From the NCBI GenBank assembly GCA_030429665.1, contig JAUIEZ010000035.1, forward strand, positions 1 to 38,328: a stretch of DNA of 38,328 nucleotides, given 5' to 3'. Positions 8,414 to 26,707 of the stretch are shown piece by piece; the stretch's first letter is position 1, and every line of letters starts with the position of its first letter. Source of the DNA: Gammaproteobacteria bacterium (GTDB lineage: Bacteria; Pseudomonadota; Gammaproteobacteria; Arenicellales; CAJQKF01). The translations under genes were made by a program, and so were the position numbers. The notes under the pieces were generated by a model, which worked only from the letters and a program-made list of their open reading frames with translations, searched no databases and was not told the DNA's origin.

Positions 8414-9099
8414 GTTTGAGAGTCAAAGGACGACGTGCGCGACTGGTCGTTGGAATCTGTACGATATTTCTACCCTGGGCGCTAAAGAGACGACTCCTCA
8501 ATCGTTTGCTTGGATATGATTTGGCGAGAGATGCCAAGATCGGAATGTCGATAGTTGCTGTCGAGAAAGCGCGAATGGATAGCGGCGCGCGGATCGGCCA
8601 TTTAACAGTCTGTCGTGGGCTGGAACGACTCGATATTGGTACTGAAGGACGAATCGGGAATCTGAACTGGATTGCCGGTGGTGGAGAGCGGCTATTGGAT
8701 AGCGGGGTCGACGGAAGAAAAACTGCATCATGCCTGTTGGTCGGTACGCATAGCGCGATAACGAATAGACATTATATAGATTGTTCCGATAGCGTCGATA
8801 TCGGCGAGTTCACGATTGTCGCAGGCGTCCGTAGCCAGATTCTGACGCATTCCGTAGACACGGGCGAGTGTCGTCAACTCGCGAAGTCGGTAGTGATAGG
8901 CGACTATTGCTTCATCGGAACAGGTTCCATCTTGCTGCCGGGTGCTGTGCTTCCCGCCTTCTCGATATTGGCCGCAGGATCCGTACTGAGAAAACCGATG
9001 GAACACACGTGGATGCTGTATGCGGGTGTGCCCGCAGTGCCAAAGAAGCAGATACCGAAATCGCATAAGTATTTCGTTAGGACTAAAGGATATATCTAA
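8410..9099 (+). CDS. Left-handed beta-helix (hexapeptide) acyltransferase
   Basis: A 229-residue enzyme of the hexapeptide-repeat O-acyltransferase group. The sequence shows loosely periodic [LIV]-G-x-x-x-x repeats (IGHLTV, IGTEGRIGN, IGEFTIVAG, IGDYCFIGTGSILLPGAVLP) and the terminal AAGSVLRK...YAGVPAVPKK element that ends most members. A His in the LTHSVD segment sits where the catalytic His is expected. It probably acetylates a sugar in the repeat unit. An N-terminal hydrophobic/basic stretch (IFLPWALKRRLLNRLL) may associate with the membrane. The GTG start overlaps the upstream stop, so the gene is translationally coupled to the GT2 gene. The acyl donor and sugar target are not visible. 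Confidence 0.83.
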   Translation: MSLRVKGRRARLVVGICTIFLPWALKRRLLNRLLGYDLARDAKIGMSIVAVEKARMDSGARIGHLTVCRGLERLDIGTEGRIGNLNWIAGGGERLLDSGVDGRKTASCLLVGTHSAITNRHYIDCSDSVDIGEFTIVAGVRSQILTHSVDTGECRQLAKSVVIGDYCFIGTGSILLPGAVLPAFSILAAGSVLRKPMEHTWMLYAGVPAVPKKQIPKSHKYFVRTKGYI

Positions 9100-9251
9100 C
9101 GACGAGAAAGTTCCCATGGATTCTCAAACCAAAGATCAATATGCCCAAGTTGTTCAAAGGTTGATGCGTGTCGTGCTGACCTACGAAACGTACGGTGACC
9201 CGATAGTTGAACGACAAACAATCGACTGCGAATGACTCGGGAGAAGGACCG

Positions 9252-9968
9252 ATGACCTACGTAAAGCGCTTACTTCACGATATTGCGAATCGAATAGGGT
9301 TTGATATCGTAAGAGCGCACCGGTCTCCCCAATCGACATTACTCGGTCTGGCCAAGTCGAGAGTCGGGACGATTATCGACGTTGGTGCGAATGAAGGGCA
9401 GTTCGCTCGACAGGTATTGGAGTTCTTTCCGGCTGCGGAATTATATTGCTTTGAACCGCTTGAGACCCCGTTTCGCATACTGAGCGAGTGGGCCAAGACA
9501 AGTAAGGGGCGGGTGCATTGCTATCAAACGGCTCTTGGGGAAAAAGAAGGCGAGGTGGAGATGCATCTTCATACACACCACTCGCCCTCCTCGTCGCTTC
9601 TTGAGTCCACAGATACCTGCCACCGGTTGTATCCACAAACAGCAACGGAACGGCTGGTTGGAATCAAGGTGTCTACACTGGATCAGGTGCTTGGACAAGC
9701 TCTTGATGACATGAAGAAAGACATCTTGCTGAAACTCGACGTTCAGGGTTACGAGGACCGCGTTCTACGGGGCGCTTCTCAGGTTCTTTCTTCTTGCGGC
9801 GTCGTCGTGATCGAAGTTTGTCTTGAGTCGCTCTACGAAGGGCAGGCGGATTTTCTTCAACTCTCTAACATGCTCTATGGCGCAGGCTTTCGGTATTCCG
9901 GGAATCTAGACCAAACCTACGACAAAGACGGTCGTGTAGTGTTCTTGGACGCGGTGTTCACGAGGTGA
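9252..9968 (+). CDS. FkbM family methyltransferase (first copy)
   Basis: A SAM-dependent methyltransferase of 238 residues. The SAM-binding motif I is TIIDVGANEGQFARQV, followed by AELYCFEPLE (acidic ribose-binding end of strand 2) and the FkbM block LLKLDVQGYEDRVLRGA, then VIEVCLESLYEGQ. FkbM enzymes O-methylate hydroxyls, and in polysaccharide loci they usually methylate sugar residues. The ATG at 9252 is preceded by GGGAGAAGGA, a strong ribosome binding site; an in-frame TTG at 9207 has none. A 152-nt gap separates it from the acyltransferase. Its stop overlaps the next start by 4 nt. A second FkbM enzyme lies at about 14.4-15.1 kb, so two methylation steps are possible. Confidence 0.88.
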   Translation: MTYVKRLLHDIANRIGFDIVRAHRSPQSTLLGLAKSRVGTIIDVGANEGQFARQVLEFFPAAELYCFEPLETPFRILSEWAKTSKGRVHCYQTALGEKEGEVEMHLHTHHSPSSSLLESTDTCHRLYPQTATERLVGIKVSTLDQVLGQALDDMKKDILLKLDVQGYEDRVLRGASQVLSSCGVVVIEVCLESLYEGQADFLQLSNMLYGAGFRYSGNLDQTYDKDGRVVFLDAVFTR

Positions 9969-10879
9969 CGCGTTCGCCGATACGCTGCCATGAATGTGAC
10001 AACCAAGCGTATTTCGTCGGCCGGATTCCTCCAACAGATGTCTTCGCAGGTAGACAGCGTACCGATGTGTCGGATAGTAGCGCGCTTTACCGTTGCGCTA
10101 ACTGTAGACTGGGGTTTCGTTGGCCGCGACCAGAGAAAAGCCGGCTTGATGCTGGTTATGTCGACGGAGACGGTTTCACCTGGACTAGAGCCCCAGCCTA
10201 TCGGCCGGACTGGGTAATTGCTCGCAACTGGTTAGCAGCTCGACTCCGACCATCGAGTAAGATGCTCGATGTAGGGTGTTTCGATGGCGGCTTTCTCAAG
10301 CCGTATCTAGGTGTTCATGATTGCCTCGGAATAGAGATACATCCGGAAGCCGGTCAACGGGCGTCACGGTTAGGGATTGAGCTGATCGGAAAGGATTTCT
10401 CGTCAATCAAAGGATCGTTCGATGTGATCACGGCGTTTGATGTGCTGGAGCATGTCGAACAACCACGACGATTCGTAGAGAACTGTTTGAACGCTTGTGC
10501 GCCGGGCGGTGGGGTGATCATATCAACCGGGAATCTGGACGCATGGTCCTTTCGATTCATGGGTAGTCGCTACTGGTATTGCACCATAGCAGAACATATT
10601 TCCTTCGTAAGCCCGGTATGGTTTTCGAGGATCCAGGAAGAAATTGAGTTCGATATTGCCCGAGAGAGCTTCTTCGCTCATGAGAGCGTTGCGTGGGCCA
10701 AGCGACTAGAGGAAGTGGTCGGAAATCTGTTGTACAAATCATTTCCTTGGGGTGTAAAAACACTCCGGAAGCTAGGCGCGGGAGGCAAAAACGTTCTGGC
10801 GCATCCTGAGCTCGCCGAACATCCACCGTATTGGGGTAGTGCCTGCGACCATTTCATGGTTTTACTGGTCAAGCGATAA
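9965..10879 (+). CDS. Class I SAM-dependent methyltransferase with N-terminal zinc-ribbon-like Cys pairs
   Basis: This 304-residue protein begins with C-H-E-C and C-A-N-C pairs about 35 residues apart, followed by GFRWPRP. This layout is common in Methyltransf_23-type enzymes that carry a small N-terminal metal-binding ribbon. The SAM-binding core follows: KMLDVGCFDGGFL (motif I), CLGIEIHPEA, then FDVITAFDVLEHVEQP, the post-motif that marks class I UbiE/COQ5-like methyltransferases. The region after residue 200 is a variable substrate-binding tail. The start is a GTG overlapping the previous stop. In this setting it probably methylates a sugar nucleotide or glycan, but the substrate is unknown. 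Confidence 0.83.
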   Translation: MTRSPIRCHECDNQAYFVGRIPPTDVFAGRQRTDVSDSSALYRCANCRLGFRWPRPEKSRLDAGYVDGDGFTWTRAPAYRPDWVIARNWLAARLRPSSKMLDVGCFDGGFLKPYLGVHDCLGIEIHPEAGQRASRLGIELIGKDFSSIKGSFDVITAFDVLEHVEQPRRFVENCLNACAPGGGVIISTGNLDAWSFRFMGSRYWYCTIAEHISFVSPVWFSRIQEEIEFDIARESFFAHESVAWAKRLEEVVGNLLYKSFPWGVKTLRKLGAGGKNVLAHPELAEHPPYWGSACDHFMVLLVKR

Positions 10880-10881
10880 GC

Positions 10882-12372
10882 ATGCCACTATCGCGAAACG
10901 CGATTTCGAATGTTGTACAGATGCTGTTCGGGGCGATCGTGGTGTTCGTACTGTACATCTATATCAACAATCAGTTGGGCGTCGAACAATTGGGCGTATG
11001 GTCTGTTGTGCTCGCTACGACTTCAGCAACAAGACTCGCCGACTTGGGTCTGGGGGGAAGTGTTACCCGGTTCATCGCTCGCGAACTGGCGCGTGACGAA
11101 ACGGAACGTGCGCGGGAGATCATCGACACGGCGGCAATTACACTGATAGTAGCAACGGGAGTCCTGTTACCGCTACTTTATCCGATGATGGTGAATGTTC
11201 TGGATCTCGTTTTCTTCGGTGAACATCTTGGGATTGCGAGAGAATTATTACCCTATGCATTCGTGTCGTTGTGGCTGAACATATTGGCTGCCGTGTACCA
11301 GGGGGGCCTGGATGGTTGTCAGCGTATGGATCTACGCGCCGCAATAGTATCGTGCGGACAAGTACTTCTATTGGTGTTGGCATTTGTGCTGGTGCCGAGA
11401 TACGGACTCGTCGGGCTCGGTGTCGCGCAGGTTGCCAATGGTGTCGTTCTCCTTGTAGCTGGAACGCTAACGTTGACACGGATCGTTCCCACGCTGTCGA
11501 GCATACCGCGTCGTTGGCGGGCTCGAACCCTGAGAGAAATGCTTGGATATGGGGTGAACCTTCAGGCGACGTCGATACTGATGATTCTGTTCGACCCCAT
11601 GGCCAAACTGCTCATGGCACGATACGGCGGTGCGGCCGCGGCTGGGATCTTCGAGGTTGCGAATCAGGTTGTTCTTAGAGTGCGGGGCATGATTGTCGCT
11701 GCTAATCAAGCAATAATTCCCCGTGTAGCGTACTTGACAGAAACGCAGCCGGAACTGTTGGCGACGTTTTACAAAAGAAATGTAAGTTTATTGGTGTTGG
11801 CGACACTGCCATTGTTTGCTCTCGTGTTTGCGTGGGGCGCCGGATTGTGTTCACTTTTAATCGGTAGCCATGAACGAGAGTTCGTAACAGTACTGGGAAT
11901 GCTTACCTTGGGGTGGGCGGCGAACACTTTCGCGGGTCCGGCCTTTTTTACAAATATGGGCAGAGGGTGCGTGGGTTGGAACGTTCTGGCGAGTGCCACG
12001 ATGAGCGTTCTCAGTGGAGTCCTTGGGTGGCTGCTGGGCATTCGTTATGGAATGTACGGCGTTACGGTCGCGTATGTAACTGGATTGATCGGTGGGAGTA
12101 CGTTGCTGATCGTGGCGTATCAGCGTCGCAGCGGACTTGCCTGGCGAGAAAGCGTGTCGCCTGAGCATCGCGGAATAGTGGGCGCTTTCCTCACGGTGGT
12201 GGCAATTGGGTGGGCGTGGCCTCTACATCCGGGCGCTGAAGACGTAATTCAGACTGCCGTTAGGATGGTGGTACCGGCGGTCATCATGGGATGGGCAGTT
12301 TGGGTCCACCCGTTGCGTCACGAGTGCCGCAACTGGCTCGTGAACACCAGAGAGATTAGCCAATGCAGTTGA
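10882..12372 (+). CDS. Wzx-like oligosaccharide flippase (polysaccharide biosynthesis MOP superfamily)
   Basis: A 496-residue membrane protein with about 12-14 hydrophobic segments and few charged residues between them. The N-terminal ISNVVQMLFGAIVVFVLYIY helix, the G-V-E-Q-L-G-V-W stretch and the internal ADLGLGGSVTRFIARE loop are typical of RfbX/Wzx-type flippases. It should move undecaprenyl-linked repeat units from the cytoplasmic to the periplasmic face, where the Wzy-like protein at 6089 would polymerise them. Only 2 nt separate it from the upstream methyltransferase, and its end overlaps the next gene by 10 nt, so it is in the same operon. The length is normal. Confidence 0.87.
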   Translation: MPLSRNAISNVVQMLFGAIVVFVLYIYINNQLGVEQLGVWSVVLATTSATRLADLGLGGSVTRFIARELARDETERAREIIDTAAITLIVATGVLLPLLYPMMVNVLDLVFFGEHLGIARELLPYAFVSLWLNILAAVYQGGLDGCQRMDLRAAIVSCGQVLLLVLAFVLVPRYGLVGLGVAQVANGVVLLVAGTLTLTRIVPTLSSIPRRWRARTLREMLGYGVNLQATSILMILFDPMAKLLMARYGGAAAAGIFEVANQVVLRVRGMIVAANQAIIPRVAYLTETQPELLATFYKRNVSLLVLATLPLFALVFAWGAGLCSLLIGSHEREFVTVLGMLTLGWAANTFAGPAFFTNMGRGCVGWNVLASATMSVLSGVLGWLLGIRYGMYGVTVAYVTGLIGGSTLLIVAYQRRSGLAWRESVSPEHRGIVGAFLTVVAIGWAWPLHPGAEDVIQTAVRMVVPAVIMGWAVWVHPLRHECRNWLVNTREISQCS

Positions 12373-12941
12373 TTATGGAAGGTACTGCGCGATTGCTGGA
12401 AGGTATCTTCAGGGTAGCGGTGCACGTTGGTCGGATCTTGCGACTGGGTTTCGTAAGGCGATTGGTGAGAAATGCATGGTGGAAGGCGCGCCTGCAGGCT
12501 ATGGGAGACGAATCCACAATCTACCCGTTCGTCATGATCCATGAGCCAGAACACGTTCGTATCGGGGCGAGGTGCGCAATCGCCGAGTTCGTACATATTT
12601 GGGGAAGCGGCGGTATTACTATAGGTAACGATGTGCTGATTGCCAGTCACGCAGCGATTACTTCGGTCACCCATGATCCGAAGGCACGTTGTTTCCGAGA
12701 AACCACGGTTCGCAAGGCTGTAGAGATTGGCGACAACGTGTGGATCGGGGCGGGTGCGATCATTCTTCCGGGTATCAGTATCGGCATGGGTAGCATTATC
12801 GGTGCGGGGGCAGTAGTGACAAAGAGCGTCCCTCCTGGAACATTGATCGTCGGCGTCCCCGGCAAGGCCAATACTGAACACTTGCCTGTCGGGAAAGATC
12901 TACATAAAGGAATATGGGTTCGGCGGTCGACGCAACACTAG
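12363..12941 (+). CDS. Hexapeptide-repeat acetyltransferase (WbbJ/NodL/LacA-like)
   Basis: A 192-residue left-handed beta-helix acyltransferase. Repeats (IGARCAIAEF, ITIGNDVLIASHAAITS, VEIGDNVWIGAGAIILPGISIGMGSIIGAGAVVTKSVPPGTLIVGVPGK) follow the classic maltose/galactoside acetyltransferase pattern, with the catalytic-type His in ITSVTHDP. It is better conserved than the acyltransferase at 8410 and probably O-acetylates a sugar of the repeat unit using acetyl-CoA. Its start overlaps the flippase by 10 nt in another frame. The N-terminal 50 residues are basic and amphipathic and lack repeats. Two distinct acyltransferases in one cluster point to a heavily decorated polymer. Confidence 0.87.
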   Translation: MQLIMEGTARLLEGIFRVAVHVGRILRLGFVRRLVRNAWWKARLQAMGDESTIYPFVMIHEPEHVRIGARCAIAEFVHIWGSGGITIGNDVLIASHAAITSVTHDPKARCFRETTVRKAVEIGDNVWIGAGAIILPGISIGMGSIIGAGAVVTKSVPPGTLIVGVPGKANTEHLPVGKDLHKGIWVRRSTQH

Positions 12942-13020
12942 TTGCCTACAGCTTTCGCCGGCACGGGGAAAGCACGGTAGGGTATCAAGGATTCGCAGAA
13001 CGTGGAGTCCCGATATCTCC

Positions 13021-13049
13021 TTGCCGCATCATATGAACGTCAATATAGA
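13021..13049 (+). promoter_or_regulatory. Candidate sigma-70 promoter before the GT4 gene
   Basis: TTGCCG at 13021-13026 and TATAGA at 13044-13049 are separated by 17 nt, about 65 nt upstream of the GT4 start, inside a 173-nt intergenic gap. Both hexamers match consensus at four of six positions. This could begin a second transcription unit for the GT4-to-fcl half of the cluster. It was found by eye only. Confidence 0.35.
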
Positions 13050-13114
13050 ATTGGTCCCGGTAGTCGTCCGGGGCGCGGTATCGAGTACGGAAACGAGCGA
13101 GAAAAAAGTCTGAA

Positions 13115-14347
13115 ATGCGGATCCTTCATGTCATTTCTACATTGGCTCCGTCGTCCGGCGGTCCGACCCAGGTGCTTAAAGGCCTTGTGGGTGCCCAGGC
13201 CTCGATCGGTCACGAGGTTACGATTTGCACGACTAACCGCGGGAGTACTGTCGAGGAACGCCTTTCTGACGATTACTTTAGAAATTTTTCTCGCGATGAT
13301 TCCATCGTTCGGGTGTTTCCGGCCTTGCCGGGAATGCTGTTGCTCTCACCACGGATGGCCCGCTGGTTGAGCAAATCGCTTCGATCTTTTGATATCGTCC
13401 ATATCCACAGCCTCTATCGCTTTCCGCAAACCTGCGCCGCGTGGCTGGCACGGCGTCAGGGCATGCCCTATGTCATTAGTCCTCACGGTGCGTTGGATCC
13501 GTATCTCTACGTTCGAAGTACGACGGGTAACCTTAAACTGAAGCGCTTGTACGAACGCTGGTTCGATTTGCCCAATCTCCACGCCGCAGACGCGATTCAC
13601 TACACGGCAGAAGATGAGCGAGACCGTGCAACCTTTTTGAAACTTGAATCACCTTCTTTCGTTGTGCCCAATGGCATTGACTGGCAGCAGTATCACGAGT
13701 TGCCGAAGTACGGTGCCTTTCGGGCAGACTGGCGCCTGGGCGACCGGCCGATCATTCTGTTTTTGGGTCGGCTGCATTTCAAGAAAGGCCTCGATCTGTT
13801 GGTTTCGGCGTTCGGTAAGCTACGGCGCAACCTTCCGAGTGCACAACTTGTGATTGTCGGTCCGGAGAATGACGGTTACGGAACAAAGGTGCGGCAATGG
13901 GTAAAGGATCGTGAGCTCGAGAGTTCAGTACATTTTCTCGGGCCGCTTTATGACGACAATGTCGTGCGCGCCTATGTCGATGCGGACCTGTTCGTGCTCC
14001 CGTCCTACACCGAAAACTTCGGACTGACTGTCATCGAGGCGCTAGCCTGTGGTCTTCCAGTGGTGATTTCCGATCAGGTGAATATCCATAGAGAAGTGAC
14101 AACTGCCGGCGCCGGTCTGGTGACGCGCTGCGATGCCGATGAGATAGCGTGCGCATTGGAGGAACTGCTGCTTGATCCGTCGCGACGTCGGGAGATGGGG
14201 GTGGATGGCCGATGTTTGGTGCGGACAAATTACACTTGGCCTACTGTCGAGGGCGCGCTGACGCGTGAGTATGAAGCGGTCATAGAACGGCACACCAATC
14301 TCTCCGCGGGAGGAAACCGAGCCAGGTGTCAGGGTATTGCCAACTGA
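13115..14347 (+). CDS. Glycosyltransferase family 4
   Basis: A 410-residue GT-B transferase. The N-terminal half starts MRILHVISTLAPSSGGPTQV and contains YVISPHGALDPY. The C-terminal half has ILFLGRLHFKKGLDLLVSAF, LVIVGPENDGYG and the nucleotide-sugar binding block PSYTENFGLTVIEALACGLPVV with the E-x7-E pattern of retaining GT4 enzymes. It adds a sugar to the lipid-linked intermediate at the cytoplasmic face. The ribosome binding site is weak (GAGAAAAAAG). The gene lies after a 173-nt spacer with a candidate promoter and is more GC-rich than the genes just upstream, so it may sit at the edge of the variable segment. Sugar specificity cannot be read from sequence. Confidence 0.9.
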   Translation: MRILHVISTLAPSSGGPTQVLKGLVGAQASIGHEVTICTTNRGSTVEERLSDDYFRNFSRDDSIVRVFPALPGMLLLSPRMARWLSKSLRSFDIVHIHSLYRFPQTCAAWLARRQGMPYVISPHGALDPYLYVRSTTGNLKLKRLYERWFDLPNLHAADAIHYTAEDERDRATFLKLESPSFVVPNGIDWQQYHELPKYGAFRADWRLGDRPIILFLGRLHFKKGLDLLVSAFGKLRRNLPSAQLVIVGPENDGYGTKVRQWVKDRELESSVHFLGPLYDDNVVRAYVDADLFVLPSYTENFGLTVIEALACGLPVVISDQVNIHREVTTAGAGLVTRCDADEIACALEELLLDPSRRREMGVDGRCLVRTNYTWPTVEGALTREYEAVIERHTNLSAGGNRARCQGIAN

Positions 14348-14479
14348 TTATTCAGACGTCGCGGCGTCTTTGCCTTTTCGGGTGATATCAACCTGATTGC
14401 CAGGTTTGTTTCGCTGGCTTGGAAGCTGGCCGAGATACTGGCGGTACCACTTTGGCGACGGGCCGTAATTCGTTATCGT

Positions 14480-15124
14480 GTGGCTGCCGGCGTAGAGCAC
14501 GCGTCGGTGTTGCGAATCCTTGGCGATATCCGGATGGTTGTGGACGTTGGTGCCAACCGGGGACAATTTGCCCTGGCCGCACGACAATGCTTCCCGAAAG
14601 CCCGTATCGTCTCATTTGAACCGCTGGTTGGACCTTCGGATCGATTCCAGCGAGTCTTTGTCCGGGACGGACAAGTGGTGCTACATTCGGTTGCCGTCGG
14701 ACCGGAGCGCAAGAAGGTCGCGATACATATTTCGGCCAAGGACGATTCCTCGTCGCTCTTGCCGATCACGCCTATACAGACGGCGTTTTTCCCGGGGACG
14801 CAGGAGGTGGAGGTTGCTACGGTTCAAGTGGCCCCGTTGCCGACATATCTGTCTGATAGCGAGATTTACTCACCGGCCTTGCTCAAGTTAGATGTTCAGG
14901 GATATGAACTCCTCGCGCTGAAAGGGTGTGAGTCGTTGTTGGAATGTTTCGAGTTTATTTACGCGGAATGCTCATTCGTAGAGCTCTACTCTGGACAAGC
15001 GCTAGCCGACGAAGTCGTGGCGTGGCTGCAGGAGAGATCGTTTCGTTTGCGTGGGGTCTACAACCTCGTTTATGACCGGACGGGTCGAGCGGTGCAAGGA
15101 GATTTTCTTTTTGAGCGGGGGTAG
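14480..15124 (+). CDS. FkbM family methyltransferase (second copy), start uncertain
   Basis: A SAM-dependent methyltransferase with motif I MVVDVGANRGQFALAARQCFP, then ARIVSFEPL and the FkbM signature LLKLDVQGYELLALKGCE followed by YAECSFVELYSGQ. It is a divergent paralogue of the enzyme at 9252 and probably O-methylates another hydroxyl of the glycan. The GTG at 14480 is the first conventional start, but the frame stays open and protein-like back to 14348 (residues such as LAWKLAEILAVPLWRRAV), which fits an N-terminal helical region common in this family. A CTG at 14393 lies 6 nt after GGTGAT, a good anti-Shine-Dalgarno match, so the real protein may be about 29 residues longer. The downstream WcaI-like gene has its own ribosome binding site. 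Confidence 0.83.
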   Translation: MAAGVEHASVLRILGDIRMVVDVGANRGQFALAARQCFPKARIVSFEPLVGPSDRFQRVFVRDGQVVLHSVAVGPERKKVAIHISAKDDSSSLLPITPIQTAFFPGTQEVEVATVQVAPLPTYLSDSEIYSPALLKLDVQGYELLALKGCESLLECFEFIYAECSFVELYSGQALADEVVAWLQERSFRLRGVYNLVYDRTGRAVQGDFLFERG

Positions 15125-15169
15125 ATTCGGTATGGTGCCACGTAACGAGTTGTCACAGGAGCGACTGGG

Positions 15170-16474
15170 ATGCGGATAGTCGTAGTCGGCCTTAACTTTG
15201 CCCCCGAACCCACCTCCACCGGGCGCTATACTGGGGAATTGGCGGAGTGGCTGGGTCGTGCGGGTCACTCGGTCAAGGTCGTGACTGCGCCGCCGTATTA
15301 CCCGGCGTGGAAGGTTTTCGAAGGCTATCGGCGGTGGTGGTACCAGTCGGAGGTCTTTTCGTTGCCCGGAACGACGCTCGACGTGGTCCGCTGTCCGATC
15401 TACGTTCCTTCCCGGGCGAGCGCGGTACGGCGTGTGTTACATCTGCTCAGTTTCGCCGCGAGCAGCGCGCCGGTCGCCATGACCGCTCGGCGTTGGCGAC
15501 CGGATGTTGTGTTCGCCGTAGCACCCACGTTGTTCGCGCTGCCGGCCGTCTGGGCCGGTGGGCGTATGGCCGGTTGTCCTTTGTGGTTGCATGTGCAGGA
15601 CTTCGAAGTCGGTGCGGCTCGAGGGGCGGGTATATTGAACGATAACCCGATGCTCAAGATTGCCGATCGCTGGGAACGATGGTGCCTTCGGCGGTGCGAT
15701 CGCGTCTCGACGATCTCCGCTCCGATGATCGATTCCCTGCAGTCCAAGGGCGTGCCCGAGACGCGGCGCGTATTCCTGCCGAACTGGGCGGATACGGAGC
15801 ACGTCTTTCCTGTCGAGGGCGCTAGTTCCTTTCGAAAGGAATTGGATTTTGCGGCAGAACAGAAGGTGGCGCTGTACGCGGGCAACATGGGAGAGAAGCA
15901 GGGCCTGGAGTTGCTGCTCGACGGTGCGCGCCGAATGTCCGCAGAGGCTGACGTGGTCTTCGTGTTGGCGGGCGACGGGGCCGCCCGGCGTCGCCTGGAG
16001 GCGAAAAGCCGGGGTATGCAAAATGTGAAGTGGTTGCCCGTGCAGCCTTCGGAACGGTTGAACGACTTGCTGAACTTGGCCGATGTGCATCTCCTGCCTC
16101 AGCGCGCCGACGTCGCCGACCTGGTGATGCCGTCGAAACTCACCAACATGCTCGCCAGTGCCCGTCCGGTCGTCGCGACCGCCGCCAAGGGAATGGCGAT
16201 TCATGACGTCGTGGCCGGACACGAGGCGGGCCTGGTTGCGGAGCCGGGCGATGTCGATGGTTTCGTGGCAGCGATCAGGCGGCTCATGACCGACTCGGAG
16301 GCAAGAGATCGAATGGGGCGCAACGGCAGGGCCTATGCGGAGCGGTACCTGACCAGGAACCGGATACTGGCGCAGTTTGAAATGGACTTGCACGAGTGCG
16401 TGCGGGAGTATAGATCAAACAGGACGGTGCAGCGTTCCGACGATACCATTCATGCCGCGCCGCCCAAGAAATGA
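15170..16474 (+). CDS. WcaI-like glycosyltransferase (GT4)
   Basis: A 434-residue GT-B enzyme closely resembling the colanic acid transferase WcaI in its N-terminus (MRIVVVGLNFAPEPTSTGRY, then APPYYPAWKVFEGYRRWWY) and in WLHVQDFEVGAARGAGI. The C-terminal half has LYAGNMGEKQGLELLLDGA, FVLAGDGAAR and the donor-binding LLPQRADVADLVMPSKLTNMLASARPVVAT. WcaI is thought to be a fucosyltransferase in colanic acid synthesis, which fits the GDP-fucose genes directly downstream. AGGAG lies 8 nt before the ATG. High GC resembles the flanking housekeeping-like genes rather than the AT-rich middle of the cluster. Family assignment is strong; the fucose donor is inferred from family and context. Confidence 0.88.
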   Translation: MRIVVVGLNFAPEPTSTGRYTGELAEWLGRAGHSVKVVTAPPYYPAWKVFEGYRRWWYQSEVFSLPGTTLDVVRCPIYVPSRASAVRRVLHLLSFAASSAPVAMTARRWRPDVVFAVAPTLFALPAVWAGGRMAGCPLWLHVQDFEVGAARGAGILNDNPMLKIADRWERWCLRRCDRVSTISAPMIDSLQSKGVPETRRVFLPNWADTEHVFPVEGASSFRKELDFAAEQKVALYAGNMGEKQGLELLLDGARRMSAEADVVFVLAGDGAARRRLEAKSRGMQNVKWLPVQPSERLNDLLNLADVHLLPQRADVADLVMPSKLTNMLASARPVVATAAKGMAIHDVVAGHEAGLVAEPGDVDGFVAAIRRLMTDSEARDRMGRNGRAYAERYLTRNRILAQFEMDLHECVREYRSNRTVQRSDDTIHAAPPKK

Positions 16475-16509
16475 CGCCGGTACCGTGACAGCACCAAGAT
16501 AGACCGAGA

Positions 16510-17622
16510 ATGACAAAGACAGCATTGATAACCGGCGTCACCGGCCAGGATGGTGCCTACCTGGCGGAGTTCCTTCTGCAGAAGGGCTACGTGGTCCACG
16601 GCCTCAAGCGGCGAGCGTCGCTGTTCAACACCGACCGCATCGATCACCTGTACCAGGATCCGCATGACCCCGATCAACGGTTCATCCTTCACTACGGGGA
16701 TTTGACCGACTCCTCCAGCCTGGTGCGGGTGATCCAGCAGGTGCAGCCGGACGAGATCTATAACCTCGCCGCGCAGAGTCACGTGGCGGTGTCGTTCGAG
16801 GAACCGGAGTACACGGCGAATTCCGACGCGCTGGGAACGCTGCGGATCCTGGAGGCGATCCGCATTCTCGGGCTGGAGAAGAAGACGCGGTTCTACCAGG
16901 CGTCGACGTCGGAGCTGTTCGGCAAAGTGGCGGAGACGCCGCAGCGCGAGACGACGCCGTTTCATCCGCGTTCGCCCTACGGGGTCGCCAAGCTGTATGC
17001 CTACTGGATCACCGTGAACTACCGCGAGGCGTACGGCATGTACGCATGCAACGGCATCCTGTTCAACCACGAGTCGCCGGTGCGCGGCGAAACGTTCGTC
17101 ACCCGCAAGGTCACGCGGGCGCTGGCGCGAATATCCCTCGGTCTGCAGAACTGCCTGTACCTGGGCAATCTCGACGCGAAGCGGGACTGGGGTCATGCGC
17201 GGGACTACGTCGAGATGATGTGGCTGATGCTGCAGCAGGACGAGCCCGAGGATTTCGTCATCGCCACCGGCCAGCAGTACTCGGTGCGGGCGTTTGTCGA
17301 GGCGGCGGCGGAGGAGCTGGGCATGGGGATTCGCTGGGAAGGCGAGGGGGCCGGCGAGGTCGGTGTCGTCGCGTCGAGCGCGGGCGAGGCGGGGCCGGCG
17401 GCGGGGAACGTCATCGTGCGCATCGATCCGCGCTACTTTCGCCCGGCCGAGGTCGATACGCTGCTGGGTGATGCCACGAAAGCTCGAGAGCAGCTTGGGT
17501 GGTCGCCGAAGACGTCTTTCGCCGAACTCGTTCGCGAAATGGTGGGCGCGGACCTGGACCTGGCCCGTCGGGACGATCTCGTGCGCAAGCGGGGATTCAC
17601 CGTGTTCAATCGCCACGAATGA
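16510..17622 (+). CDS. gmd: GDP-mannose 4,6-dehydratase
   Basis: This short-chain dehydrogenase family enzyme converts GDP-D-mannose to GDP-4-keto-6-deoxy-D-mannose, the first step to GDP-L-fucose. The sequence has the NADP-binding [21 protein letters not shown] motif at the N-terminus, the family block [17 protein letters not shown], the [32 protein letters not shown] stretch, the STSELFGK catalytic Thr/Ser region, the SPYGVAK Y-x3-K pair, and the C-terminal [20 protein letters not shown]. At 370 residues it is close to the usual length. It overlaps the fcl start by 4 nt (ATGA), a common gmd-fcl arrangement. No GDP-mannose supply genes (manA, manB, manC) are in the window. Confidence 0.96.
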
Positions 17623-18596
17623 GCGCGCAAGGCATGGACAGGCAGGCACCGGTGTTCGTCGCCGGTCACCGCGGCATGGTCGGCTCGGCAATCGTTCGCG
17701 CGCTGGAGCGCGCCGGGCACGAGCACATACTGACCGCGCCGCGCGCCTCGCTGGACCTGCTGGACCAGGCGGCGGTGCGGCATTGGTTCGAGGTGAACAA
17801 GCCGCGCTACGTGTTCCTGGCGGCCGCGCGGGTGGGCGGGATTCACGCGAACGACACGCTGCCCGCGGACTTCATCTACCAGAACCTCGTCATCGAGACG
17901 AACGTGATCGAGGCCGCCTGGCGCGCCGGCGTGGAACGGCTGCTGTTCCTCGGCAGTTCCTGCATCTATCCCCGCATGGCGACACAGCCGATGTCCGAGG
18001 AGGCGCTGCTGACGGGCGCGCTCGAGCCCACCAACGAGCCCTACGCCGTGGCGAAGATTGCCGGCGTGAAGTTGTGCGAGTCCTTCAACCGGCAGCACGG
18101 CACGGACTTTCGTTCGGTGATGCCCACCAATCTCTACGGCCCCGGCGACAATTTCGATCTCGAGGGCAGCCACGTGATCCCGGCGTTGCTGCGCAAGTTC
18201 CACGAGGCCAGGTGCGGTAACGCGCCGAGCGTGGCGGTGTGGGGAAGCGGGAAACCGCGCCGTGAGTTCCTGCACGTCGACGACGCCGCCGAAGCGTGCC
18301 GGTTCGTCATGGCTCTCGGGCCGGCGACGTACCGGGCGCATACCACGCCGATGTGCTCGCACCTCAACGTCGGCTGCGGCACGGACGTGACCATCGCCGA
18401 GCTCGCGAGGACGATAGGAGACGTCGTGGGCTACGAGGGCGAGATTCGCTTCGATGCGAACAAGCCGGACGGCGCGCCGCGCAAGCTGCTGGACGTGAGC
18501 CGTCTCAAGGCCATGGGATGGCAGGCGCGCATCGGGCTCGAGGAAGGCCTGCGGGAAGTCTACGAATGGTACCGGGCGTCGGAGGGCGGCCGATGA
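17619..18596 (+). CDS. fcl: GDP-L-fucose synthase
   Basis: An epimerase/reductase that converts the Gmd product to GDP-L-fucose using NADPH. The N-terminal nucleotide-binding motif is [18 protein letters not shown]. Downstream are the catalytic region [17 protein letters not shown], the [18 protein letters not shown] block with the Y-x3-K pair, the family sequence [30 protein letters not shown], and [10 protein letters not shown]. At 325 residues it has normal length. The ATG at 17619 overlaps the gmd stop; an internal ATG at 17634 is also possible. With gmd it supplies activated fucose, presumably to the WcaI-like transferase. It is the last gene of the polysaccharide cluster, followed by a non-coding gap. 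Confidence 0.95.
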
Positions 18597-21589: not shown

Positions 21590-21816
21590 TCGGGAATCCT
21601 CCCCGCTCGCGTTCGCGAGCGCCCGGCAGGTCGTCGTGCCGGTCACCGATGCCGCCGTCGCGTACCAACGGCGCTCGCGCTGCAATCTGGAGCCGCCCGG
21701 AACCTTCTTCGGCGGCGTGACCCTGGTGCGTCGTTGTCGAACCCGGCGTGGGACCCGCGATTGATCTGAATTGTACTCGCGCGCCCGGGTGGTCGATCCA
21801 ATTTCCTCGGCAACGC

Positions 21817-21845
21817 TTGAAAGATCGATCGTTAACGTACACAAT
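21817..21845 (+). promoter_or_regulatory. Candidate promoter of glycine-rich gene 1
   Basis: TTGAAA (21817-21822), a 17-nt spacer and CACAAT (21840-21845, within GTACACAAT) are conserved with the same spacing at 25606-25634. The spacer itself differs between the copies, as expected if only the hexamers are under selection. The -10 match is weak. Confidence 0.45.
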
Positions 21846-21849
21846 CCCT

Positions 21850-21992
21850 GCCCGTTGTACGGACTCCGACAATCAGGCGAACAGCGGATAACCGTGTTCT
21901 TCGGCACTTGCTTTCGAGGTTTGGGGGGAAGTCGGCGGAGGGAATCCTCTCGACGGCCGGATTGAAAATTAACAACAATCGGTAGGGGAACC
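21850..21992 (+). promoter_or_regulatory. Conserved 5' leader, possible structured RNA (copy 1)
   Basis: This leader lies between the promoter-like sequence and the start codon and is strongly conserved with 25639-25780. GGA-CTCCG (21861-21868) can pair with CGGAG-GGAA-TCC (21936-21947), leaving a four-base bulge. Inside, CTTCGG (21899-21904) can pair with TCGAGG (21914-21919) around the invariant loop CACTTGCTT. Long invariant stretches (ACGGACTCCGACA, CAGGCGAACA, CGGCACTTGCTT, GGCGGAGGGAATCC except one base) exceed what promoter function needs. It matches no riboswitch consensus that I know. A structured control RNA is inference. Confidence 0.45.
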
Positions 21993-22910
21993 ATGAAACC
22001 TGAAGACAAGTGCGCCCGTGGTGCGAGCGCGAGCGAATCCGAAACGCCTGAATTATCCGTCCCGTTGCATCGACGCCGTTTGCTCAAGGCGCTGGCCATA
22101 GGCGGCGCGGCGGCAATGCCCGTCGAGAAATGGTCCCGACCCGTCGTCGAATCGGTGGTGCTGCCGGCCCATGCCCAGACGACGGACGATGACGAAGAAC
22201 CTCGCGTTGCCGAGCCGGGATGTTCGGTTTTCAATTCTGATGACAGTTTCGTCGTGCCGGAAGGTATTACCGAGATCCAGGTGGAACTCGAAGGCGGCGC
22301 CGGCGACGATGGCGACGGGTTTGCCGGCCACGACGGCGGTTCAGGCGGAGACGGCGCCTCGGTCACGGCGACAATCGCGGTATCGCCGGGTGAGATCCTC
22401 GGCATCTCGTTTGTCGCGGGTGGCGCCGGAGGGACGAATGCCGGAGATTCCCTTGCTGGAGCGGGCGGCGCGGGCGGCGCGACCGCCGCGATCGATCGGG
22501 GCGGCTCGTACCTGGTCTGGGCCGGTGGCGGTGGCGGCGGTGGCGGCGCCTACGATCGTGACGCCGGCGATGGGTCGGGTGGCGACGGTGGCGACGCGGG
22601 TAGCGGCGGTTCCGCGAGTGCCGATGGCGACGCCGGCGGCACCTACCCGGGCGGTGGCGGCCAGAACAGCCAGGATCCGGCCAGCGCGGACGGCGACGAC
22701 GGCACCTCCAACGGTACCTTCGTGACGGCCGGCGGCGGCGCGGCCGGCGCGGACGGTGCATCGCCCTCCGGTGCCAACGGCGGCGGCGGCGGTGGTGGCG
22801 CCGGCGGTGAAAGCGGTTCTTCCGGGGGCGACGTCACGGGCTTCTCTGCTTCCGGCAGTAGCACAGGCGGTGCGGCGGTCTTGATCTGTTGGGGCGGGGC
22901 GAGCCTCTGA
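21993..22910 (+). CDS. Secreted glycine-rich protein with Tat-like leader and LPAHA motif (copy 1)
   Basis: A 305-residue protein. Residues 27-41 (RRRLLKALAIGGAAA) look like a twin-arginine-type signal, followed by KWSRPVVESVVLPAHAQT (46-63), an acidic stretch (DDDEE), a Cys at 77 and then a glycine-rich domain. That domain starts VVPEGITEIQVELEGG, has the SVTATIAVSPGEILGISFVAGGAGG core and the WAGGGGGGGGA block, and ends with ICWG. This is the pattern of bacterial/phage Gly-rich beta domains. Cys77 and the Cys near the C-terminus may form a disulfide bridging the domain. It is probably exported and surface-located; the function is unknown. AGGGGA precedes the ATG. The paralogue at 25781 is nearly identical from residue 17 to about 270 and diverges at both ends. 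Confidence 0.8.
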   Translation: MKPEDKCARGASASESETPELSVPLHRRRLLKALAIGGAAAMPVEKWSRPVVESVVLPAHAQTTDDDEEPRVAEPGCSVFNSDDSFVVPEGITEIQVELEGGAGDDGDGFAGHDGGSGGDGASVTATIAVSPGEILGISFVAGGAGGTNAGDSLAGAGGAGGATAAIDRGGSYLVWAGGGGGGGGAYDRDAGDGSGGDGGDAGSGGSASADGDAGGTYPGGGGQNSQDPASADGDDGTSNGTFVTAGGGAAGADGASPSGANGGGGGGGAGGESGSSGGDVTGFSASGSSTGGAAVLICWGGASL

Positions 22911-23133
22911 CCGATTCGTTCGGGCGGCTCGGCGCGCGCCGTGTGGGCAGCGCCATCCGCGCGCGAACCTGCCGCGTTACCCTGCTGATGAGCATATCGG
23001 GATGACGGGCGCACGGCGTATCTTCGTTTCGACGGGGATCCGCCGGTTGCGCCGTGAGGCCACGTCCGGTACCCGTTGTACGACCGGGACGACGCGCGGC
23101 TGAGATCCCGGGCCGAAAGGAGGCGGGCGGGCG

Positions 23134-25032
23134 TTACTCGGGCAGCCCGGCCGCGCGCAGCGCGCCGAGATAATGTTCCAGGTCCTCGGGCCGGCGGTAG
23201 TTGGATTCGCGTCTTACCGCCTCGAGCGTGATGTTCGGGTCCACCAACAGTGCTTCCTGGACGGCCCACTCGGCATCGTCCTGCTGACCGAGGGCGGCGT
23301 ACACCGCGGCGAGGGACAACTGGCCGAGCGGGAACGCGGGATTTCGACTGACGCTTTCCTCGAGTACCGCCTTCGCCTCATCGTAGCGATTCATCAGGAA
23401 CAGGATGCGCCCCTCGACGGATAGCAGGATGTAGGAGTACTGCGGGTCGATCTCCTTGGCGCGCCGGATGGCCCGCAGCGCGTCGTCGAGGTCGCCCGCG
23501 AAACTCTGCACGAAGGCCAGGATCGCGTAGCCGTCGCCGTAGTTCGGATGCACCTCGACGGTGCGCCTCGCCGCTTCCACCGCCGCGTCGTGGCTTCGCT
23601 GGGCGAGGTACAGCAGGCTGCGGGTGGAGTAGACCTGCGGCAGGCTCGGATCGAGTTCGAAGGCCTTCTCCGCGTACTTGAGTCCCTCCGCGATCGCGTA
23701 CTCCCGGTCCCTGACGAGGTTGATGTTGATGTCCGATGCGTAGGTGAGAGCGACGTTCGCGTAGGCCCGGGCATAGTCCGGGTCCAGTTCGGCGGCTTTC
23801 GTGAACAGCGCCCGCGCCTCGCGGATGTCCTCGGGCGTGAAGCGCTGGTAGTGCTGCAATCCGCGCAGCAGCGTGTCGTAGGCCTGCGGGTTGGTGGTTT
23901 CGACGGACTCCAGCCGCTCCCGCTCGGCGCTGGTCAGGTTGACCGAGAGCGCTTCCACGATGCGCTTGTTCACGTCGTCCTGCAGCCTGAACACGTCCGA
24001 CATCCCGCCGTCGAAGCGGTCGGCCCAGACGTGTCCCCCGGATGTCGCGTCGATCAACTGGGCGTTGATGCGGACCTGGTCTCCAACGCGCCGGACACTG
24101 CCCTCCAGCACGTAGCGAACCCCCAGGGCGTCGGCGACCGTGCGCACGTCGACGGACTGTCCCTTGAAGGCGAAGCTCGAGTTGCGCGCAACCACGAACA
24201 GGCCCGAGATTCGCGACAGGTCGGTGGTCAGGTCCTCGGTAATGCCGTCGGCGAAGTATTCCTGCTCGGGGTCGCCGCCGAGGTTGTCGAAGGGCAGGAC
24301 GGCGATGGACGGGCGCTCGTCGGGCGCGTCGATCGATTGCGCGTCAACGGTTGTCGCGGGATCTCTATCGGGCAGGAACCATAGCGCCGCGATGCCGGCC
24401 GCGGCAACAACGATGACGCCCGCCACGATCGATGGCAACGGGAGTCGGCGCCCGTGCCGGCTCGCCGGTCGTTCGGCCGGGCCCGGGATGGCATCGCCGT
24501 CGCGTGTCCCGACGGCATAGACGGGCACCGGGTCGTCGAACCCCTTGAGCGTCGGTTCGCCCAGGCGTTCGTACGCCAGCGGCAGACGCCTCGGCAACGC
24601 CTCGTGGATGGCGCCCGTGACGTTGACACCCCCGGGGGCGCAGAGCTGCTCGATCCGTTGTGCCAGAACCACGCCGGAACCGGTGACCGTGCGGTCCGCG
24701 ATCACGACCTCGCCGAGGGCGATGCCCACGCGGACCTCGGGCCTGATGTCTCCATCGAGGGTTCGATTGAATTCGGCGCTGGCGTGTTGGAACGCCAGCG
24801 CGGCGCACACCGCGTCGGACGCGCGGGAGAACTCGGCGACCAATGCATCGCCGCGCACCTCGTGGGCGATGCCGCCGTAGGCGGCGACGTGCTCCGCGAG
24901 ACGCCCCAGCGTTTCGGTGATGCGACGATGGGCCAGACGTTCGTCGCGCTGCACCAGGGCCGTGGAACCCGCCACGTCGGCGTGGAGAATGACCGCCAGG
25001 GTGCTTGCCGGGTCGTTCGCGCGTGGTTGCAT
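23134..25032 (-). CDS. Class III adenylate/guanylate cyclase-like protein with TolB-like and TPR domains
   Basis: A 632-residue membrane-anchored signalling protein. The N-terminal cyclase domain (about 12-172) has ILHADVAGSTAL with the first metal-binding Asp, VRGDALVAEF with the second, GVALGE-like VGIALGEVVI, and GVVLAQRIEQLCAPGG. One membrane helix (about 201-221) follows. Then comes a FlgO/TolB-like segment (SIAVLPFDNLGGDPEQEYFADGITEDLTTDLSRI, RYVLEGSVRRVGDQVRINAQLIDA), common in this protein class, and then TPR repeats to the end. Both metal Asp residues are present, so cyclase activity is plausible. The ATG at 25032 was chosen because GGGAGGGGGA precedes it; an ATG at 25059 is in frame. 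The gene lies between the two glycine-rich genes on the other strand, so a regulatory link is possible but unproven. Confidence 0.88.
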   Translation of the reverse strand: MQPRANDPASTLAVILHADVAGSTALVQRDERLAHRRITETLGRLAEHVAAYGGIAHEVRGDALVAEFSRASDAVCAALAFQHASAEFNRTLDGDIRPEVRVGIALGEVVIADRTVTGSGVVLAQRIEQLCAPGGVNVTGAIHEALPRRLPLAYERLGEPTLKGFDDPVPVYAVGTRDGDAIPGPAERPASRHGRRLPLPSIVAGVIVVAAAGIAALWFLPDRDPATTVDAQSIDAPDERPSIAVLPFDNLGGDPEQEYFADGITEDLTTDLSRISGLFVVARNSSFAFKGQSVDVRTVADALGVRYVLEGSVRRVGDQVRINAQLIDATSGGHVWADRFDGGMSDVFRLQDDVNKRIVEALSVNLTSAERERLESVETTNPQAYDTLLRGLQHYQRFTPEDIREARALFTKAAELDPDYARAYANVALTYASDININLVRDREYAIAEGLKYAEKAFELDPSLPQVYSTRSLLYLAQRSHDAAVEAARRTVEVHPNYGDGYAILAFVQSFAGDLDDALRAIRRAKEIDPQYSYILLSVEGRILFLMNRYDEAKAVLEESVSRNPAFPLGQLSLAAVYAALGQQDDAEWAVQEALLVDPNITLEAVRRESNYRRPEDLEHYLGALRAAGLPE

Positions 25033-25363
25033 TCCCCCTCCCGCTGCGATGGACCGCATTGGCCAACGTCGTATGCTGATTCGCGCCGGGTTGCGACGTC
25101 CGCGTGTTGATCACCCGGGCGCTGGCGGCTGATGCCTTGTCCGCGCCATTCTACACCCATCCCGAAAAGCCGCCGGCCCGGGGTGCGCCTGCCATACCAG
25201 CGTCGGGGCATGTCCCGGCGGGTATCGACCCCGCGCCGCATCCCCGGTGCTGAAACGGGTGTCGTCACGTCGTCCGAAAGAGGCAACCGGGGACACCGTT
25301 CCGTCCGTTGGACCGGTACGCGACTCCCGCGGTCATTGACCCCAAAAACGGTGTTTGCTCTCC

Positions 25364-25377
25364 TATAGTGCACTATA
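25364..25377. promoter_or_regulatory. Perfect 14-bp palindrome, possible operator
   Basis: TATAGTGCACTATA is its own reverse complement. It stands in an otherwise GC-rich divergent intergenic region, about 330 nt upstream of the cyclase start and 400 nt upstream of glycine-rich gene 2. Such a site suits a dimeric DNA-binding regulator. No known regulon consensus is recognised. Confidence 0.4.
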
Positions 25378-25605
25378 CGATGTGCCTTCTCCAGCCTCGC
25401 GACGGACGGTGCCGGCACCAGGTTGCGGGTTTATTTGCAACCTCCTGATTGCCGTTCTCCGCCCTGGCCCAACGATCCGGAACCATCGGATCTCGCGCCA
25501 GGCAGCAAGAACTCCGGCACGGAGCCGGTGAATCCGGCGCAGGATCCGTTGTTGAATTCGGTCGGCGTCGGGCGCCGGGGACGCGTCGTGGACCTCCGGC
25601 AACGC

Positions 25606-25634
25606 TTGAAACTATTTCCTTTAATGTACACAAT
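25606..25634 (+). promoter_or_regulatory. Candidate promoter of glycine-rich gene 2
   Basis: TTGAAA (25606-25611), a 17-nt spacer and CACAAT (25629-25634) occur at the same distance and in the same context (GGCAACGC before, TTAA-GTACACAAT within) as in copy 1. The -10 is weak. Confidence 0.45.
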
Positions 25635-25638
25635 TATT

Positions 25639-25780
25639 CCCGGTCGCACGGACTCCGACAGCCAGGCGAACAACGGACGGCCGAGTCCATCGGCACTTGC
25701 TTCCGAGGTTGGGGGGTAGTCGACGGAGGGAATCCGCACGGCGACCAGGCTCAATACTCACAATGTTCGGTAGGGGAAAG
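25639..25780 (+). promoter_or_regulatory. Conserved 5' leader, possible structured RNA (copy 2)
   Basis: The same fold as in copy 1 is possible: GGA-CTCCG (25650-25657) with CGGAG-GGAA-TCC (25724-25735), and CATCGG (25688-25693) with CCGAGG (25703-25708) around CACTTGCTT. In the inner stem one G-U pair of copy 1 is a G-C pair here, which keeps pairing, but a U-G pair of copy 1 becomes an A/G mismatch. Support for structure is therefore partial. Confidence 0.45.
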
Positions 25781-26707
25781 ATGAAACCAGAAGATCAGCA
25801 CACCCGCGGTATGGATGAATCCGACTGCGAGACGCCTGAATTATCGGTACCACTGCATCGTCGCCGTTTGCTCAAGGCGCTGGCCATTGGCGGCGCGGCG
25901 GCAATGCCCGTCGAGAAGTGGACTCGACCCGTTGTCGAATCGGTGGTGCTGCCGGCCCATGCCCAGACGACGGACGATGACGAAGAACCTCGCGTTGCCG
26001 AGCCCGGATGTTTGGTTTTCACTTCTGATGACAGTTTCGTCGTGCCGGAAGGTATTACCGAGATCGAGGTGCAACTGGAAGGCGGCGGCGGCGAGGATGG
26101 CGCCGGGTTCTTGGGACACCCCGGCGGTTCGGGCGGAGACGGCGCCCTTGTCACGGCGACAATCGCGGTATCGCCGGGTGAGATACTCGGCATCTCGTTT
26201 GTCGCGGGTGGCGCCGGCGGGACGAATGCGGGCGATACGCTTGCGGGCGCCGGCGGCGCGGGCGGCGAGACCGCCGCGATCGATCGGGGCGGCTCGTACC
26301 TGGTCTGGGCCGGCGGCGGTGGCGGCGGTGGCGGCGCCTACGATCGTGACGCCGGCGATGGGTCGGGAGGTGACGGTGGCGACGCGGGTAGCGGCGGTTC
26401 CGCGAGTGCCGATGGCGACGCCGGCGGCACCTATCCGGGCGGTGGCGGCCAAAACAGCCAGGCGCCGGCCAGCGCGGACGGCGAAGACGGCACCGACAAC
26501 GGCACCTTCGTGGCTGCCGGCGGCGGCGCGGCCGGCTCGGACGGTGCGTCGCCCGCCGGTGCCGACGGCGGCGGCGGCGGTGGTGGTGCCGGCGGCGACA
26601 GCGGTTCCGCTGGCGTCTCGGATTTCCAGGATTTGGGCGCGATTAATTCCAGTTCCGCGAGGATTCAGATCTGCTGGGGCGAGGGCGGCGCGCCGAGTCC
26701 GGAGTAA
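25781..26707 (+). CDS. Secreted glycine-rich protein with Tat-like leader and LPAHA motif (copy 2)
   Basis: A 308-residue paralogue of the protein at 21993, with the same leader (RRRLLKALAIGGAAA at 27-41), KWTRPVVESVVLPAHAQT block (46-63), Cys77, Gly-rich beta domain and a C-terminal ICWG. Residues 1-16 and the last 40 differ (for example a DFQDLGAINSSSARIQICWGEG ending split here by an extra hydrophilic tail), while the centre is almost unchanged, even at the DNA level. The ATG at 25781 follows TAGGGGAAAG; the frame is open further upstream but only through the leader sequence. It converges on the minus-strand methyltransferase gene with 47 nt between the stops. Export and surface location are inferred; the biochemical role is unknown. 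Confidence 0.8.
   Translation: MKPEDQHTRGMDESDCETPELSVPLHRRRLLKALAIGGAAAMPVEKWTRPVVESVVLPAHAQTTDDDEEPRVAEPGCLVFTSDDSFVVPEGITEIEVQLEGGGGEDGAGFLGHPGGSGGDGALVTATIAVSPGEILGISFVAGGAGGTNAGDTLAGAGGAGGETAAIDRGGSYLVWAGGGGGGGGAYDRDAGDGSGGDGGDAGSGGSASADGDAGGTYPGGGGQNSQAPASADGEDGTDNGTFVAAGGGAAGSDGASPAGADGGGGGGGAGGDSGSAGVSDFQDLGAINSSSARIQICWGEGGAPSPE

Follow-up and report, generated by a model that had tools for sequence, protein, structure and literature searches.

Two glycine-rich proteins encoded in the stretch of DNA analysed here (the window, 38,328 nucleotides) carry a leader that was also found before unrelated proteins in other genomes of the order Arenicellales. Judged by sequence, these leaders form a genuine family of the Tat type that is restricted in lineage and has an additional conserved block. 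On balance, we think it probable that the leader is a two-purpose tag, acting as a Tat export signal and also as a docking site for a RiPP recognition element (RRE), by which the protein would be modified in the cytosol before export. We hold more tentatively the wider possibility of a RiPP logic at the scale of whole proteins in some Gammaproteobacteria, in which a Tat leader with RRE docking would send unrelated proteins to PqqD-linked glycosyltransferases or other enzymes, the twins being cargoes served in trans.

The twin genes and their common leader

The first-pass annotation of the window had described twin genes for glycine-rich proteins with a near-invariant leader. The twins are real, and both reading frames are open. 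Their features were located as follows.

21809..21992, + strand: upstream element, copy 1 (TTGAAA at 21817-21822 and CACAAT at 21840-21845, promoter-like)
21993..22910, + strand: twin 1, Tat-leader glycine-rich protein of 305 aa, open ORF
22071..22175, + strand: leader of twin 1, R27-A61 (twin-arginine motif, short Ala/Gly core, W..P..LPAHA block)
22131..22175, + strand: rigid 15-residue block of twin 1, WSRPVVESVVLPAHA, with the candidate RRE recognition motif WxxPxV
22218..22895, + strand: glycine-rich domain of twin 1, from the first strand with C76 to the last strand with LICWG, as predicted by AlphaFold2
22071..22828, + strand, partner at about 25859-26610: homogenised tract between the twins, from silent-site identity along the alignment
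25598..25780, + strand: upstream element, copy 2 (TTGAAA at 25606-25611 and CACAAT at 25629-25634)
25781..26707, + strand: twin 2, Tat-leader glycine-rich protein of 308 aa, open ORF, with ATG 25781 as the corrected start
25859..25963, + strand: leader of twin 2, R27-A61
25919..25963, + strand: rigid 15-residue block of twin 2, WTRPVVESVVLPAHA
26006..26689, + strand: glycine-rich domain of twin 2, boundaries from alignment to twin 1

For twin 2, ATG 25781 was the best start, and the TTG at 25697 upstream merely lengthens the open frame. The acidic stretch (DDDEEP), the Gly-rich body and the two cysteines (C76 and the cysteine of LICWG or QICWG, one at each end of the domain) that had been described earlier were all found. 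Between R27 and Q62 the two leaders differ only once, by Ser or Thr at residue 48. Over codons 26-260, near-identity extends to silent sites, with 23 synonymous changes across 216 conserved residues. The N-terminal 25 codons contained 9 synonymous and 8 replacement changes, and the last 43 codons contained 6 and 18, respectively; silent change in the ends differed from that in the centre (Fisher p 1.5e-4). The homogenised tract fits gene conversion or a recent exchange, as had been suggested, and the pair as a whole fits an older duplication whose centre was later converted. Selection for different tips, proposed at the same time, found no support. The ends diverged at silent and replacement sites alike, so that conversion of the centre alone suffices.

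The 184 bp located 5′ of each twin, overlooked in the first-pass annotation, are also duplicated (77% identical), and a promoter-like TTGAAA-17-CACAAT pair is kept in both copies. The element was absent before every other leader gene examined, which rules out one promoter common to all leader genes.

The leader family and its PqqD-containing neighbours

When the source genome was searched with the N-terminus of the twins, the twins themselves (E 2.5e-64 and 1.8e-55) and 12 further leaders (E 2e-12 to 2e-6) were obtained. The 14 leaders lie on 11 contigs, each before its own open reading frame, and their passengers are unrelated. Despite diverged codons, all of them retain W, both prolines, P-A-H and Q-T-T. 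A DNA pattern for P-A-H-[AG]-Q-T gave 15 matches in this genome, 14 of which were the leaders, and the reversed pattern gave none. The leader was present in 39 of 109 genomes of the order, in 1 to 20 copies each, and one of the two genomes of the same genus holds 20. These counts and the 14 copies of the source genome rule out a leader confined to the twins. Outside the order, sporadic leaders were seen in Gammaproteobacteria (G575, G615, G680). None was found elsewhere in the phylum among a sample of 397 genomes, in a profile search that scored only the best candidates per genome together with a strict DNA pattern and that distant variants may escape. None was found on plasmids or in the PDB. 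The genomes are mostly draft or metagenome assemblies, in which a simple greedy rule was used to call ORFs.

The leader consists of RR (or KR), a variable stretch, the block W-x-[KR]-P-V-V-[ED]-S-V-x-L-P-A-H-A and then Q-T-[TS]. RR or KR was present in 69 of the 69 leaders first examined. In all of these W to the final A spans 15 residues, while RR to W spans 16 to 32. Among 66 distinct blocks, extracted with a pattern that demanded W, both prolines and one of H, Q, R or Y, the residues W, P4, P12 and H14 were invariant; since the pattern preset W and both prolines, the search of the source genome is the strongest unbiased evidence, with W, both prolines and H in 14 of 14 leaders. Over all blocks the end was AHA, and rarely AHG, SHA, GHA or VHA.

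The first half of the leader (RRxLLKAL and a weakly hydrophobic Ala/Gly core) would act as the Tat export signal. Core hydropathy was moderate (median best 12-mer 1.62). The curated Tat profiles TIGR01409 and PF10518 were matched at 13.5 of 16.7 bits and 14.4 of 22.7 bits; as both scores lie below cut-off, the leader is termed Tat-type without being filed in either family. With Tat signal peptides it shares the RRxLLK motif, the moderately hydrophobic core, the AxA site and these weak matches of 13-14 bits. It differs from generic Tat signals in the extra invariant block of fixed length, W-x-x-P-V-V-x-S-V-x-LPAHA-QT, which is undescribed for them. The source genome encodes TatC and two S26 peptidases (signal peptidase I). 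LPAHA↓Q is a textbook signal-peptidase site, and in the leader of twin 1 the predicted cut would fall after A61. The W..LPAHA block seems to have been added to a Tat signal. Hence, the earlier idea that the leader is a signal of its own kind holds in one part, namely that a distinct conserved module precedes many different secreted proteins. The other part, that it takes the place of a plain Tat signal, does not agree with RR or KR throughout, TatC and LPAHA↓Q.

A partner gene shared by the leaders had also been anticipated, and a candidate was found in PqqD/RRE domains; PqqD is a plausible partner of the leader family. Within the order it occurred in 39 of 39 genomes with the leader and in 14 of 70 lacking it (Fisher 4e-18, a correlation in a test that ignores kinship), and its occurrence in the latter 14 indicates that PqqD is insufficient alone. 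The exosortase control gave a weak association (9 of 39 vs 4 of 70, p 0.012). At most 5 kb from a listed leader, 14 PqqD domains were counted where 1.8 were expected (about 8-fold), 3 of the 14 coming from one locus, and the link had first been spotted in some of the loci afterwards counted. Comparison of adjacent with distant ORFs gave a weak enrichment of PqqD (6 of 125 vs at most 2 of 127). A family of stand-alone PqqD proteins (L198:1947-2279, on contig C203 of the source genome, G000) was present in 17 genomes, all leader-positive (Fisher 1.6e-9), and within genus g21 in three of three leader-positive and none of two leader-negative genomes. The stand-alone genes at L198:1947-2279 and L200:5986-6312 have no RiPP-type enzyme adjoining, and within the order their homologues were confined to leader-positive genomes. 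No PqqD was seen in G575, which is leader-positive, outside the order and 81% complete, and the contig of the window gave no match.

Neighbourhoods were inspected for 60 fetched loci and for those of G000 and G022. The commonest adjacent family was a large glycosyltransferase (GT2 and GT25), several members of which possess an N-terminal PqqD. PqqD fusions adjoining leaders were of the types GT2-GT25 (L095, L162, L191), GT2-like (L147), Glyco_transf_7C (L151) and Gly_transf_sug-GT2 (L180). In G615, which belongs to another lineage, PqqD is a separate small gene adjoining a GT2-GT25 enzyme and two leaders. For the PqqD region of L095 an RRE fold was predicted (AlphaFold2 pLDDT 82.5), and its best Foldseek matches were RREs solved with leader peptides. 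Thr/Pro-rich passengers adjoined the GT2-GT25 family more often (5 of 15) than others did (3 of 70, p 0.004), which fits O-glycosylation. O-fucosyltransferase-like proteins and tubulin-tyrosine-ligase-like ATP-grasp enzymes were other neighbours. An RRE with an enzyme was present beside the leader gene at several related loci, but not at the locus of the twins, whose immediate neighbours (cyclase-TPR and a CmcI-like methyltransferase) are not among the known RRE enzymes. At most leader genes, no RRE enzyme is adjacent.

Possible roles of the conserved block

Many RREs, including PqqD, FusE, McjB and StsC, recognise W/Y/LxxP/L/I, as given in a 2025 survey (PMC12710340), and the invariant W-x-x-P-x-V of the leader matches the class published there. 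We propose that W-x-[KR]-P-V-V-E-S-V is a docking sequence for an RRE of the PqqD type. A cytosolic RRE, fused to an enzyme or stand-alone, would grip this segment and bring the passenger to the enzyme, which from the related loci would mostly be a glycosyltransferase. The modified passenger would then leave via Tat, and signal peptidase would cut at AHA↓Q. Tat tolerates folded, modified cargo. The twins would be cargoes of the cell surface or the periplasm, each with a glycine-rich domain like that of ALK/LTK, and their RRE would act in trans, the stand-alone PqqD on contig C203 being one example. Docking, modification, Tat export and cleavage are what we infer; what we observed is a conserved family of leaders, with diverse passengers, and the co-occurrence and linkage of PqqD. 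The RRE reading is limited in that WxxP is short and that the invariant His of LPAHA and an internal AHA block of the passengers are left unexplained.

The arrangement resembles RRE-dependent RiPP leaders (PqqA, the YxxP of lasso peptides) with PqqD/PF05402, in its WxxP and in RRE-fold domains fused to, or adjoining, enzymes by the substrate gene. Unlike in those systems, the leader here would also be a Tat signal, cargoes are mostly entire secreted proteins (100-400 aa) where the RiPP systems have a short core peptide, and the enzymes are mainly glycosyltransferases. Fusions of RREs with glycosyltransferases, PF00535 among them, were noted by RRE-Finder as potentially novel (PMC7470986, PMC12710340). 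The accessible text of these papers names no substrate for them, whereas here a recurrent, adjoining family of Tat-leader substrates is proposed. The DUF2282 precursors are likewise RRE-associated substrates bearing an export signal; theirs is a Sec signal, unlike the Tat-type signal here, and the survey reports no specific RRE recognition motif for them (PMC12710340). No report of Tat and RRE together was found in the open-access literature.

The leaders may instead be ordinary Tat signals of one paralogous lineage, in which the block is an inherited c-region with its signal-peptidase site, spread by leader shuffling and having no dedicated partner. The constant RR or KR, the typical core hydropathy (1.62), an AHA↓Q that suits signal peptidase I, and the presence of TatC and two S26 peptidases would all be expected of such signals. 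We regard this as unlikely, since signal peptidase has no need of W, S, Q, T, the P at position 4 or the H at -2, all of which stay constant or almost constant while codons and genomes diverge. Moreover, a spacing fixed at 15 residues next to one that varies suggests a further constraint, and the PqqD association would have to be a coincidence. Another reading invokes a chaperone. Tat leaders are known to be read by chaperones, TorD and DmsD binding their leaders, and the block might bind a dedicated proofreading chaperone that delays export until the passenger is folded, with no covalent modification; the stand-alone PqqD that tracks the leader could be one. The passengers are without an obvious cofactor domain, however, and the frequent fusion of PqqD with glycosyltransferases better suits modification; we take this to be the most improbable of the readings.

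The remaining alternative concerns a second block inside the passengers. The pattern [IL][LI][DE]x[FL][VI]xxA[HY]A had 33 matches in about 30 of 107 passengers. Shuffling of the passengers left 0.15 matches, and neighbouring ORFs gave 12 over 224,000 residues; as some of the block-bearing passengers are interrelated, the 33 matches are not all independent. One or two copies lie 16 to 113 residues past the leader, in register with VVESVVLPAHA (for example in L004, L005, L017, L056, L064, L191 and L192). The internal block (hh[DE]xhhxxA[HY]A) echoes the leader-end consensus and might be a second cut site of a dedicated membrane protease or sorting enzyme for which LPAHA is the sorting motif. The conserved His or Tyr at -2, unlike generic signal-peptidase sites, agrees with this. 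Such an enzyme is nevertheless quite improbable: no candidate protease appeared among the recurrent neighbours, the internal block is without the W..P part and the long hydrophobic core, and a second AHA-type block is absent from many passengers, the twins among them. Sorting of the exosortase/PEP-CTERM type was ruled out, PF09721 being unmatched in the source genome.

Targeting in cytosolic bacterial protein glycosylation is usually attributed to the acceptor sequence. If the leader is indeed a two-purpose tag, targeting would follow another rule here, in which a shared export leader recruits the enzyme by way of an RRE, and Tat export would be joined with RiPP leader recognition. The leader would also supply a substrate family for the RRE-glycosyltransferase fusions, and a transferable tag by which any chosen cargo could be modified and exported. 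Through W and P of the block, the docking idea is directly testable.

Passenger domains and further neighbours

Gly-rich and Thr/Pro-rich proteins, small Cys domains, endosialidase-chaperone-like tails and fasciclin-like proteins were recognised among the passengers, by eye except where scanned. By eye, L032, L051 and L054 encode Tat-leader proteins with endosialidase-chaperone-like (S74) tails, a domain best known in phage tail spikes. Some leader genes have a mature part of about 8-24 residues (L061, two in L055, L043, L029, L105); these are genuinely short or are followed by a separate ORF, which in some cases contains Cys. L042 was ruled out as a leader-only gene, as it is a frameshift relative to L038, L040 and L045.

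With Pfam Gly_rich_2 (PF21722), twin 2 scored 24.5 bits against a cut-off of 24.3 (3.3e-5) and twin 1 scored 21.4 bits (2.8e-4). The AlphaFold2 model of twin 1 had strands at 76-176 and 295-300 and did not resolve the Gly-rich middle (pLDDT 57, low overall but good for the strands). Its nearest Foldseek matches (E about 2e-3 to 6e-3) were to Gly-rich domains of ALK/LTK and to tail tip proteins of phages. With the ALK/LTK glycine-rich domains (TG/GRD), phage tail tip or fibre domains and PF21722, the twin shares predicted beta strands around a Gly-rich insertion; the match is weak (E 2e-3 or worse, pLDDT 57), and the Gly-rich core of the twin is absent from the model. Since the two cysteines are placed on the first and last strands, a closing disulfide between them is likely.

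At L093:1991-9542 and L107 (G000 contig C182 and G022 contig C18), an O-fucosyltransferase-like gene and a protein with combined matches to GlcNAc-transferase, hydroxyproline-arabinosyltransferase and 2OG-oxygenase flank a short leader protein rich in Pro and Thr; this may be a bacterial hydroxyproline-glycosylation locus. Tubulin-tyrosine-ligase-like (ATP-grasp) genes directly adjoin leaders in three genomes, including one from outside the order (L088:4978-6060, L097:8661-9761, L192:3159-4259). Between the twins, on the opposite strand, the window encodes a protein with a class III cyclase-like domain and TPR (23134-25059, - strand), and cyclase-like genes also lie near several other leader genes. 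The region 7523-18596 of the window (GT2, FkbM-type methyltransferase, flippase, GT4s and GDP-mannose/fucose enzymes) looks like a surface-polysaccharide cluster, for which a relation to the twins is not required. G+C is 0.49-0.56 over 5-15 kb of the window and about 0.65 around it, which suggests acquisition from elsewhere.
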